64,000 nucleotides of DNA, taken from positions 1 to 64,000 of the forward strand of contig JAQGJU010000146.1 of NCBI GenBank assembly GCA_028290465.1, read 5' to 3'. Of the stretch, positions 47,127 through 49,851 are shown piece after piece. Every line of letters starts with the position of its first letter. Positions within the stretch are counted from its first letter, which is position 1. Source of the DNA: Xanthobacteraceae bacterium (GTDB taxonomy: Bacteria > Pseudomonadota > Alphaproteobacteria > Rhizobiales > Xanthobacteraceae). The translations under genes were made by a program, and so were the position numbers. The notes under the pieces are model-generated. The model was not told the origin of the DNA, ran no database searches, and worked only from the letters and a program-made list of their open reading frames with translations.

Positions 47127-48635
47127 ATGAATTTGTTCGAGCAGATCCGTCGGCGCATCGCGTCGCCGCAGCAGACCTTGATGGAGACGGCGACCGGCAC
47201 GCGCATCACCTATGGCGATATGCTGAAGCGTACCGGGCGCCTCGCCAACATTTTGGTCATGCGGGGCGTCGAGCCCGGCGACCGGGTCGCGGTGCAGATC
47301 GAGAAGAGCCCGGAAAATCTACTGCTGTATCTCGCGGTGCTGCGGGCTGGCGCGGTGTTCCTGCCGCTTAACACCGCCTATACGACGACCGAACTCGATT
47401 ATTTCATCGGCGACGCCGAACCGAAGCTGGTGGTCTGCGATCCGAAGAAGCGCGATGGGCTTGTGGAGATTGCCAATAAGCACAACGTCGCCGCGCTCGA
47501 GACGCTGGATGCCAATGGCAAAGGCTCGCTGATCGATGCGGCCGCCGAGGCGCCGGCCGACTTTGCCGACGTGCCGCGCGCGCCCGACGATCTTGCGGCG
47601 ATTCTGTACACGTCCGGCACCACCGGGCGTTCCAAGGGCGCGATGCTGAGCCATCGCAATCTCGGCTCCAATGCCGAGGTGCTGGTCGACTACTGGCGCT
47701 TCACGTCCAAGGACGTGCTGCTGCACGTGCTGCCGATCTATCACACGCACGGCCTGTTCGTGGCCTGCAACGTGGTGATGCTGGCCGGCGCGTCGATGCT
47801 GTTCCTGCCGAAATTCGATGCCGACGAGGCGATGCGGCTGCTGCCGCGCGTCACGACCATGATGGGCGTGCCGACGTTCTATACGCGGCTGTTGCAGCAT
47901 CCTGGACTGACCAAGCAGGCGACCGCCCATATGCGGCTGTTCACCTCGGGATCGGCGCCGCTGCTGGCCGAGACCCATCGCGAGTTCAGCGAAAAAACCG
48001 GCCATGCCATCCTCGAGCGCTACGGCATGACCGAAACCAACATGAACACCTCGAACCCGTATGACGGCGATCGTGTTCCTGGCACCGTCGGCTTTCCGTT
48101 GCCGGGCGTCGAGGCGCGCATTGCCGATCCGGACAGCGGCAAGGCGCTGCCGCAGGGCGAGATCGGCATCATCGAGGTCAAGGGCCCGAACGTGTTCGCC
48201 GGCTATTGGCGTATGCCGGACAAGACCAAGGCGGAATTCCGACCCGACGGGTTCTTCATCACCGGCGATGTCGCGATGATCGACGCGCGCGGCTATGTGC
48301 AGATCGTCGGCCGCGCCAAGGATCTGATCATCACCGGCGGCTTTAACGTTTATCCGAAGGAAGTCGAGACCGAGATCGATGCGCTGCCCGGCGTGATCGA
48401 ATCCGCCGTGATCGGCTGCCCGCATAAGGACTTCGGCGAAGGCGTCACGGCGGTCGTGGTGTGCCAGAAGGAGTCGACCTTGAACGAAAAGGCGGTGCTG
48501 GACGCGCTCAACGCGCGGCTCGCCAAGTTCAAGCTGCCGAAGCGCGTGATCTTCGTCGACGATCTGCCGCGCAACAATATGGGCAAGGTGCAGAAGAACG
48601 TGCTGCGCGAGCAGCATAAGGCGCTGTACGGTTAA
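47127..48635 (+). CDS. matB: malonyl-CoA synthetase MatB
   Basis: The 502-residue product is an ANL-superfamily acyl-CoA synthetase nearly collinear with Rhodopseudomonas palustris MatB as recalled. Shared segments include LYTSGTTGRSKGAMLSH (about 160-176), LPIYHTHGLFVA, MGVPTFYTRLLQ, ERYGMTETNMNTSNPYDGDR, ITGDVAMID, RAKDLIITGGFNVYPKEVE and the C-terminal PRNNMGKVQKNVLRE with the adenylation Lys. It makes malonyl-CoA from malonate, ATP and CoA. Together with the TRAP transporter and decarboxylase it lets the cell use external malonate as carbon source. No terminator of its own is visible before the DUF559 cassette, whose left inverted repeat starts 4 bases after the stop. Confidence 0.95.
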   Translation: MNLFEQIRRRIASPQQTLMETATGTRITYGDMLKRTGRLANILVMRGVEPGDRVAVQIEKSPENLLLYLAVLRAGAVFLPLNTAYTTTELDYFIGDAEPKLVVCDPKKRDGLVEIANKHNVAALETLDANGKGSLIDAAAEAPADFADVPRAPDDLAAILYTSGTTGRSKGAMLSHRNLGSNAEVLVDYWRFTSKDVLLHVLPIYHTHGLFVACNVVMLAGASMLFLPKFDADEAMRLLPRVTTMMGVPTFYTRLLQHPGLTKQATAHMRLFTSGSAPLLAETHREFSEKTGHAILERYGMTETNMNTSNPYDGDRVPGTVGFPLPGVEARIADPDSGKALPQGEIGIIEVKGPNVFAGYWRMPDKTKAEFRPDGFFITGDVAMIDARGYVQIVGRAKDLIITGGFNVYPKEVETEIDALPGVIESAVIGCPHKDFGEGVTAVVVCQKESTLNEKAVLDALNARLAKFKLPKRVIFVDDLPRNNMGKVQKNVLREQHKALYG

Positions 48636-48638
48636 GTA

Positions 48639-48714
48639 CTTTCTTGTCCCTCTCCCCGTTCTTACGGGGAGAGGGTGACTTCCGAGCGCAGCGAGGAAGT
48701 CGGGTGAGGGGCAA
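48639..48714. repeat. left inverted repeat of the DUF559 cassette
   Basis: The arm CTTTCTTGTCCCTCTCCCCG...GGGTGAGGGGCAA is an inverted copy of 49074-49140. It contains two hairpins of its own: CCCCGTTCTTACGGGG and GACTTCC...GGAAGTC. In the first hairpin a T-A pair here corresponds to a C-G pair in the right arm, a compensatory change that keeps the stem. Confidence 0.92.
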
Positions 48715-48719
48715 CGGTG

Positions 48720-49070
48720 ATGCGTGGTCCACGGTCATCTGTCGGTACGGAAAGACGTTTGCGCCGTCAATCGACCAAAACTGAAACTGTGCTTTGGTTT
48801 GCATTGCGGGATCGGCGCCTCAATGGTTTTAAATTTGTCCGCCAGGAAGCCATCGGCATCCACATCGCCGATTTTGTTTGCCGCGATCGGATGCTGATTG
48901 TTGAGGTCGATGGCGGCCAGCATGCCGATAATCCGCGCGATGTAGTGCGCGACGCTTGGCTAGCAGCCGAAGGCTATCGCATTCTGCGCTTTTGGAATTC
49001 CGATGTGCTGTCCAATAAGGACGGCGTGTTGCTGACTATCCTTGAAGCTCTTGGTGCGAGTGATCGCTAG
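48720..49070 (+). CDS. DUF559 (Vsr/PD-(D/E)XK-like) endonuclease-domain protein inside inverted repeats
   Basis: The 116-residue product matches the DUF559 family: KTETVLWFALRDRRLNGFKFVRQEAIG, HIADFVCRDRMLIVEVDGGQHA, VVRDAWLAAEGYRILRFWNSDVL. The D...EVDGGQH block is the nuclease-like core, related to very-short-patch-repair endonucleases. A GTG at 48717 could also start it. The gene fills the space between two inverted repeats almost exactly: the start is 5 bases after the left arm and the TAG stop 3 bases before the right arm. It separates matB from an unrelated minus-strand gene. Whether it cuts DNA is not known; the structure suggests a small mobile cassette. Confidence 0.88.
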   Translation: MRGPRSSVGTERRLRRQSTKTETVLWFALRDRRLNGFKFVRQEAIGIHIADFVCRDRMLIVEVDGGQHADNPRDVVRDAWLAAEGYRILRFWNSDVLSNKDGVLLTILEALGASDR

Positions 49071-49073
49071 AGT

Positions 49074-49140
49074 TTGCCCCTCACCCGGCTCGCTTCGCTC
49101 GCCACCTCTCCCCGCAAGAGCGGGGAGAGGGACAAGAAAG
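49074..49140. repeat. right inverted repeat of the DUF559 cassette
   Basis: TTGCCCCTCACCCGGCTCGC...GAGGGACAAGAAAG is the inverted partner of 48639-48714. The outer hairpin (CCCCGCAAGAGCGGGG) and terminal bases match closely; the inner hairpin (GGCTCGCTTCGCTCGCC) differs in sequence from the left arm but also folds. TTTTTT follows at 49145-49150, so the arm may also work as a terminator for rightward transcription. Confidence 0.92.
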
Positions 49141-49158: not shown

Positions 49159-49851
49159 CTAACTCTTCCCATACACCGGCACGATGGCGCCGCGTGTGAC
49201 CTTATTGGCGGGCGATGCGAGAAACAGAATAGTCGCCGCGACTTCTTCGACTTTCGGCCAGGCGGCGAAATCCGCCTTCGGCATCGCCTTGCGGTTGGCC
49301 GGCGTATCCATGATCGAAGGCGCGACGGCGTTGACCAGAATGCCGTCCTTGGCGACCTCTTCGGCCAGCGCCGCCGTCAGCGATGCGACGGCCGCCTTGC
49401 TGGCCGTATAGGCCGCCATGCCGGCGCCGCTGCGCCATTCCAGCGCCGGACGCGCCGCCACATTGACGATGCGTCCTCCGCCGGTCATCGCCTTCACGGC
49501 TTCGCGGCAGCACAGGAAGGCCGTGACGAAATTCGTGTCCATCTGCCGCATCAAATCGGCCTTGGACGTTTCCGCAACCTTGGCCATCGCGAAGCCGCCG
49601 GCCAGATGGACAGAGGCCCAGACCGTGCCGACCGACGCGAACAGCGCCGCGACGTCGGCCTCTTCCGAAAGGCTTTTCACCTCGACCAGCTTGACCCGTT
49701 CATGCGCGCGATGCGGAAAGCGTTCGGCTTCGGCGGCATCCCGATAGGACACGTGACAGATAGCGCCGGCTTCCAACAGCGCGCCGACCAGCGCGATGCC
49801 GAGCGCACCGGTGCCGCCGGTCACCACGACATGACGATCGCGGAAGTCCAT
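49159..49851 (-). CDS. short-chain dehydrogenase/reductase family protein
   Basis: The 230-residue product has the Rossmann cofactor motif TGGTGALG (about 11-18), HLAGGF in place of NNAG, and the catalytic YTASK. The serine expected 13 residues before the Tyr is absent (AARPALEWRSGAGMAAY), which resembles quinoid dihydropteridine reductase, where this Ser is also lacking (family knowledge). It may therefore be a reductase of an easily reduced substrate or a non-classical SDR. It stands alone between the DUF559 cassette and a glutamine amidotransferase gene in the same direction (51-base gap). Confidence 0.88.
   Translation of the reverse strand: MDFRDRHVVVTGGTGALGIALVGALLEAGAICHVSYRDAAEAERFPHRAHERVKLVEVKSLSEEADVAALFASVGTVWASVHLAGGFAMAKVAETSKADLMRQMDTNFVTAFLCCREAVKAMTGGGRIVNVAARPALEWRSGAGMAAYTASKAAVASLTAALAEEVAKDGILVNAVAPSIMDTPANRKAMPKADFAAWPKVEEVAATILFLASPANKVTRGAIVPVYGKS

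Follow-up and report, generated by a model that had tools for sequence, protein, structure and literature searches.

Genes of the DUF559 family are almost universally accompanied by BoxC/PIT repeats, and the repeat arms found beside each of these genes are specific to their own gene. This association was brought to light by a locus in the window, that is, the whole 64,000-nucleotide stretch of contig JAQGJU010000146.1 (Xanthobacteraceae bacterium, assembly GCA_028290465.1), in which an earlier note had described a DUF559 nuclease-like gene tightly enclosed by inverted repeats of about 70 bp and resembling a mobile cassette. Its recurrence, close to 90% of the genes sampled, suggests that BoxC/PIT elements have in the DUF559 nuclease the enzyme partner that they had lacked so far. 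The unit present in the window is best read, with moderate confidence, as a small mobile or recently mobile element of ~0.5 kb whose nuclease would act on potentially triplex-forming arms.

Organisation of the locus

The DUF559 gene is located at 48717..49070 on the plus strand and encodes 117 amino acids, starting at a GTG (48717) or at an ATG (48720), with a predicted PD-(D/E)XK fold of the Vsr/EDxHD type. On one side of the element is matB, which ends at 48635, and on the other a gene for an SDR protein (49159-49851, minus strand). The gene lies between a left arm (48639..48714, plus strand) and a right arm (49074..49140, minus strand) that is an inverted copy of it, both defined by inverted-repeat search and by the sequence. 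The ATG at 48720 is placed 5 bases past the left arm, and the TAG ending at 49070 falls 3 bases short of the right one, as had been claimed; this enclosure is upheld by the coordinates and by the inverted-repeat score of the flanks, which reaches 82, while none of the 830 dinucleotide shuffles made from DUF559 flanks scored above 33, ruling out a chance origin of the arms.

From the outside towards the gene, each arm consists of a first hairpin (CCCTCTCCCC..GGGGAGAGGG), a second hairpin and a G-rich tail, GGGTGAGGGG. The left arm, in which the outer CTTTCTTGT is included, is a class II PIT whose pyrimidine tract, purine tract and third strand read towards the gene. Its hairpin 1 (CCCTCTCCCCGT-TCTT-ACGGGGAGAGGG; 48648..48675, plus strand) is 100% complementary, and it is followed by hairpin 2 (GACTTCC...GGAAGTC; 48677..48701, plus strand), recognised by sequence and spacer folding, and by the putative reverse-Hoogsteen third strand (48702..48711, plus strand), a mirror of the hairpin 1 purine strand supported by the sequence, the PIT detector and the motif definition given in PMC4666352. 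The right arm, on the minus strand, carries the corresponding third strand at 49077..49086 (CCCCTCACCC on the plus strand; sequence), hairpin 2 at 49087..49103 (GGCTCGCTTCGCTCGCC; sequence and spacer folding) and hairpin 1 at 49105..49131 (CCTCTCCCCGC-AAGA-GCGGGGAGAGG(G); sequence and inverted-repeat search).

Two hairpins per arm had been proposed in the earlier note, and both exist. The single repeat of about 70 bp held only in part: the arms do not form one continuous repeat, and their inverted matches are confined to an outer block of 36 nt (48639-48674 / 49105-49140, 94%) and an inner block of 17 nt (48698-48714 / 49074-49090, 94%). Thus, hairpin 1 and the inner motif are kept between both arms, whereas hairpin 2 is unrelated in sequence (GACTTCC..GGAAGTC versus GGC..GCC), each version being self-complementary. 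The claimed compensatory change from T-A to C-G was confirmed at the loop-closing pair of hairpin 1 (CCCCGT..ACGGGG on the left, CCCCGC..GCGGGG on the right). Selection on structure, which had been deduced from that change, receives further support, since all the hairpin-2 spacers of the window genome (30 distinct spacers in 32 distinct arms) fold better than the mean of their own shuffles, making a stronger case for it. What had been overlooked is that the inner tail mirrors the purine strand of hairpin 1, with A or T standing opposite A, so that each arm has the potential to form an intrastrand triplex of the purine type, as expected of a BoxC/PIT/TM element.

The arms are dispersed repeats, with 95 matches in the window genome, intergenic and many of them in inverted pairs; inverted PIT pairs that lack a gene and have ~25 bp at their centre are frequent there. 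These genome-wide counts are based on pattern and BLAST searches, and a reversed-pattern control for the PIT pattern search gave 0 matches.

The arms as BoxC/PIT/TM-type repeats

Triplex repeats of the BoxC/PIT type were already known in E. coli in the 1990s. BoxC, PIT and TM are names for the same elements, which have been reported in >260 genomes and whose triplex is stable in vitro, as was shown for TMECO (Holder et al. 2015 NAR, PMC4666352; see also Hoyne & Maher 2000, cited therein). The same authors found neither a stable triplex in double-stranded DNA nor in vivo footprints, and the earlier work that they cite detected no promoter or terminator activity in PIT elements. According to them, no transposase or integrase remnants are found near these elements, whose "mechanism and evolutionary origins ... 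remain unanswered". DUF559 is not mentioned in that paper, and no link between DUF559 and PIT/BoxC elements, or between DUF559 and inverted repeats, was found in the literature searched, which lacks most subscription journals, so that a report elsewhere cannot be excluded.

The rule defining the PIT motif (a pyrimidine tract, its complementary purine tract and a mirror purine tract, with G*GC, A*AT and T*AT triads) is met at 48648-48711 and at 49077-49131. The mirror rule fits 39% of asymmetric hairpins, versus 17% for a direct, 7% for a complement and 19% for a swapped relation. The exact spacing of TMECO (N3 between duplex and third strand) is not met, the spacer hairpin being ~18-31 nt long in the window genome; short spacers at this position are present in other taxa. 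Taking these data together, the arms of the window are BoxC/PIT/TM-type repeats by motif, while their folding into a triplex is inferred from sequence alone.

Other structures were also considered. A G-quadruplex formed by the four G runs is not excluded, although the mirror placement of A and T fits the triplex rule better than it does a direct repeat. A structured RNA has in its favour only a weak match to whalefall-1 (Rfam RF01762; 48646-48711, 22.3 bits, below the gathering cut-off of 37), and purine-motif triplexes are impossible in RNA (PMC4666352, introduction). Matches of miRNA type at other loci were chance matches to palindromes, below cut-offs. As a separate observation, the whalefall-1 consensus (a UCUCUCC hairpin, a second hairpin and GGGUGAGGAC) shares the architecture of the arms; it is conceivable, with the match below cut-off, that this "noncoding RNA", found only in metagenomes, is a PIT DNA repeat.

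The DUF559 protein

The DUF559, PD-(D/E)XK-like identity that had been assigned to the product held: the protein belongs to PF04480 (E 1e-35, 122.3 bits against a gathering cut-off of 20.6). Across 25 sequences, the active-site residues E23, D52, D65 and H69 are invariant and E63 is nearly so. The gene is under strong purifying selection, as indicated by a mean dN/dS of 0.06 among Bradyrhizobium orthologues and likewise among dispersed copies. In Foldseek searches, the AlphaFold2 model of the protein (pLDDT 86) matched 3hrl (E 2e-9), which corresponds to NGO0050, itself a DUF559 protein of the same family (E 2.8e-21 for the window protein against 3hrl), followed by the catalytic domain of the homing endonuclease I-Bth0305I (3r3p; E 3.4e-4, TM 0.64) and by Vsr (E 0.03). 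Thus, the model predicts a nuclease fold of the Vsr/EDxHD type, nuclease activity being inferred. In Caulobacter, the DUF559 protein VsrA damages DNA in living cells (PMC12907096).

Association of DUF559 genes with PIT repeats across genomes

Loci were collected from 200 Pseudomonadota genomes, 47 of which contain DUF559 (<=8 copies each), together with 80 named loci, yielding 166 full-length DUF559 genes with flanks. The PIT detector was run at one fixed setting (8-nt stem, <=1 mismatch, either strand) over a range of 250 nt, and the flanks were tested through a Smith-Waterman inverted-repeat score >=34 between the 300 nt on either side of the gene.

A PIT was found within 250 nt of 149 of the 166 genes (90%), versus 10 of 631 shifted windows (1.6%). 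Stricter controls in the same loci gave 32/321 for the flanks of other genes (10%) and 11/49 for other intergenic regions (22%), with odds ratios of 12.5 and 30. The flank score was reached by 42% of DUF559 genes, compared with 0.9% of shifted pairs taken from those loci and 0/830 dinucleotide shuffles. Among genomes, the PIT pattern appears in 30/47 of those with DUF559 versus 9/153 of the others (p=5.5e-16), and among genera in 24/33 versus 5/77 (p=2.5e-12). Since DUF559 loci share ancestry, the counts are not fully independent and the p-values assume more independence than there is; the effect, even so, is very large. The generality that the earlier note had set as a condition is thus sustained across the sampled genes. 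DUF559 genes of Deinococcus plasmids are flanked by PIT arms and those of cyanobacterial plasmids have PIT-like repeats alongside, some too short for the detector.

The arms also match their own gene. The three DUF559 loci of the window genome carry three families of arm sequences, with scores of 45, 80 and 82 between own partners and <=29 across loci; in the wider sample, a score of 34 was attained by 37% of own pairs versus 7% of same-genome cross pairs. That the arms would be ordinary dispersed repeats with no link to DUF559 had been set as a refutation of the cassette reading: dispersed they are, but the link is very strong, and a generic repeat without it is ruled out by these gene-matched arms and by the 90% versus 10-22% linkage.

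The same data bear on a passive explanation, in which PITs would be generic repeats that gather in intergenic regions and DUF559 genes would merely reside in repeat-rich hot spots. In its favour, PITs are frequent in these loci in general (the 22% of other intergenic regions), and a Bradyrhizobium site described below hosts unrelated repeats too. Against it stand the difference in linkage, the matching of arms to their own gene and the lack of any such co-occurrence for Y1_Tnp (PF01797, the REP transposase family), present in 15/39 PIT genomes versus 78/161 others. This explanation is strongly disfavoured, to the point of being practically discarded. Spread driven by RAYT enzymes was likewise rejected, taking into account that the window genome has no Y1_Tnp and that this family does not co-occur with PITs, and a phage-borne origin of DUF559 was rejected with only two weak phage matches.

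With respect to position, the PIT is upstream in 130 of the 166 genes (78%), downstream in 63 (38%) and on both sides in 44 (27%). The nearest upstream PIT directs its third strand towards the gene in 115/130 cases, the median distance from PIT to nuclease domain is 40 nt, and class II PITs found on both sides are inverted in 30 cases and direct in 13 (p=0.014). A regulatory or repair role could be proposed from this layout: DUF559 would be a Vsr-like repair nuclease and the PIT at its start a control or self-recognition site, the unit not being mobile. The predominance of upstream PITs, their fixed orientation and short distance favour it, as does the chromosomal VsrA of Caulobacter, tied to methylation-dependent damage (PMC12907096). 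However, it leaves unexplained the locus-specific matching arms on both sides, the presence/absence polymorphism, the copies at non-homologous loci and the several copies per genome, and PITs lack promoter or terminator activity in the work cited in PMC4666352. It is regarded as improbable.

Several individual loci deserve description. In E. coli K-12, a BoxC/PIT lies ~190 nt downstream of ycjD (NC_000913.3:1351150-1351830, L243), a half hairpin overlaps the 3' end of the gene, and a different long palindrome is found at its start. The ycjD segment with its flanks is covered in 3364/5426 E. coli genomes; it does not qualify as a clean empty site, since both of the other alleles inspected carry an efflux operon next to fabI. 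In Deinococcus plasmids (L250, L301, L302, L307), the DUF559 gene is inside the hpa (4-hydroxyphenylacetate) cluster, with neighbours varying by species.

Empty sites and copies at other loci

Empty sites exist, and copies of gene plus arms occur at non-homologous loci. At the site of the window, a single hairpin is all that separates matB from the SDR gene in one relative (G017, locus L047), and in G001 (same genus) no element follows matB. Identical occupation in all relatives, the other refutation that had been set, is therefore not observed.

In a Mesorhizobium-like genus, one element (L080) has near-identical arms of ~100 bp. Its flanks are found in ~100 other genomes, where the matches break at the ends of the element, and its site is empty in ~17 fetched species, with a gap of 6-69 bp. 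Copies of this type, arms plus gene, 85-89% identical, are located at non-homologous loci in three genomes (G253, G334, G364). At a Bradyrhizobium intergenic site the full element is present in at least 10 genomes, while others contain single-arm or hairpin remnants, only 12 bp (L344), or unrelated repeats or other PIT pairs. The Mesorhizobium-like and Bradyrhizobium labels are partly inferred, from kinship and from named loci, and no tree polarises insertion versus deletion in these comparisons. No clear or consistent target-site duplication was detected, the outer palindromes blurring the ends in Mesorhizobium-type copies.

The main rival to the mobile-element reading is homing. In this model, PITs would have spread by another route, or by DUF559 acting in trans, and the gene, as a free-standing EDxHD homing endonuclease, would invade PIT pairs already in place; it would cut PITs, and the arms would serve as homology for the repair. 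It is supported by the structural match to the I-Bth0305I catalytic domain (family in PMC3943268), second-best of those obtained, by the placement of the gene exactly between the arms, and by the common gene-less inverted pairs of the window genome, which could be unoccupied homing sites. Against it, there are arm-free empty sites opposite gene-bearing ones (6 bp in L281, 12 bp in L344), and the same arm family was never met, intact but without the gene, at a site where a relative carries the gene. Homing is considered unlikely, and the reading of the unit as an element that moves with its arms is retained.

That gene-less pairs derive from a gene-bearing copy by internal deletion is unsupported in the window genome (mean match 10.1 versus 9.7 in shuffles). 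Broken DUF559 genes, with stops or truncations, are found beside arm-like repeats at G000:C11:193-506 (L005/L007) and G000:C31:35352-35462 (L006), and they seem to trace a gradual decay by which gene-bearing forms become gene-less.

Other features of these sites were also recorded. The Bradyrhizobium site (L338-L357) is an insertion hot spot that hosts, depending on the species, the DUF559 element, other PIT pairs or CGTCATTGCCGGGCTTGACCCGGC repeats. The outer ends of L291, L282 and L105, of Mesorhizobium type, bear one more palindrome on the outside, whose variants are compensatory (GCGCCGGCGC, GCGTCGACGC, GCGGTGCCGC). YGCCGGCR is present in some of these Mesorhizobium-type palindromes; in Caulobacter this is the motif methylated by ScmA, and loss of that methylation leads there to DNA damage dependent on VsrA (PMC12907096).

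Proposed mechanism, limits and meaning

The element comprises one DUF559 gene between two inverted BoxC/PIT arms, each of which could form, besides a second hairpin, an intrastrand triplex of the purine motif. It is proposed that the arm folds once single-stranded, for instance on the lagging-strand template; that the Vsr/EDxHD-type nuclease of the element recognises the folded arm, or the junction between arm and target, and nicks or cuts it; and that, in the repair that follows, a copy of the element is placed at a new intergenic site. Arm pairs without the gene, and single arms, would be non-autonomous or decayed derivatives mobilised in trans.

The mobile cassette anticipated in the earlier note is therefore supported, although movement of the unit by its own nuclease is still inferred. 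That the triplex forms in the cell, that DUF559 cleaves the arms and that it drives the mobilisation are all inferences, and there is no biochemical evidence of PIT cutting. Several facts weigh against the mobile-element reading: a detected PIT on both sides in only 27% of genes, many having the upstream one alone; the lack of a clear target-site duplication; gain and loss unpolarised by a tree; gene-less pairs that are not visibly internal deletions; and a stable PIT triplex unseen in double-stranded DNA or in vivo footprints (PMC4666352).

A bolder reading, slightly more likely than not to hold, is that DUF559 and BoxC/PIT form a hitherto unrecognised class of bacterial mobile element. Found in several phyla, it would rely on a stand-alone Vsr/EDxHD-type nuclease to mobilise DNA through ends that fold into three strands, and the dispersed BoxC/PIT of E. 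coli and of hundreds of other genomes, and perhaps whalefall-1 RNA, would be its non-autonomous descendants. The link provides BoxC/PIT repeats, of unexplained origin ever since the 1990s, with a candidate enzyme, and DUF559/YcjD with a candidate substrate, both testable in ordinary laboratory strains. Should the nuclease truly act on folded arms, the system would be transposition-like, with a DNA triplex as its recognition signal, and it could offer a reason for the reported strain-to-strain variation at BoxC/PIT sites.

Comparison with known systems

Insertion sequences and MITEs share with the element the terminal inverted repeats, a trait met in the window, and the existence of gene-bearing and gene-less forms; they differ in that no DDE transposase is present, DUF559 being the sole gene inside, and no clear target-site duplication was detected. 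The EDxHD homing endonuclease I-Bth0305I is alike in its predicted catalytic fold and its logic of self-spreading, but the DUF559 protein of the window is a stand-alone catalytic domain without extra DNA-binding modules and is flanked by its own repeats. No intron or intein was seen at this gene; empty alleles exist, and homing is at most inferred. Members of the same protein family (NGO0050, E. coli YcjD, Caulobacter VsrA) have been treated as repair or unknown nucleases, and their repeat context is unreported in the papers found.

REP/BIME repeats and their RAYT (TnpA-REP) enzymes are similar in having dispersed palindromic repeats, inverted pairs, many gene-less copies and one small enzyme gene with its presumed substrate repeats on either side. 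The comparison, already drawn in the earlier note, holds as an analogy only: the enzyme of the window is a PD-(D/E)XK/EDxHD nuclease and not a Y1 HUH transposase (PF01797), of which none was found in the window genome; GTAG or CGTC tags, or their complements, are absent from both arms; and the repeats are BoxC/PIT triplex repeats.

Finally, BoxC/PIT/TM elements coincide with the arms in their build (pyrimidine tract, purine tract and mirror purine tract), in being dispersed, intergenic and often in inverted pairs, and in their strain-variable presence. Unlike them, the arms of the window carry an extra hairpin between duplex and third strand (a 26-nt spacer versus ~3 nt), and whereas no mobility gene was reported for those elements in PMC4666352, the matched arms of the window enclose the gene of a predicted nuclease.
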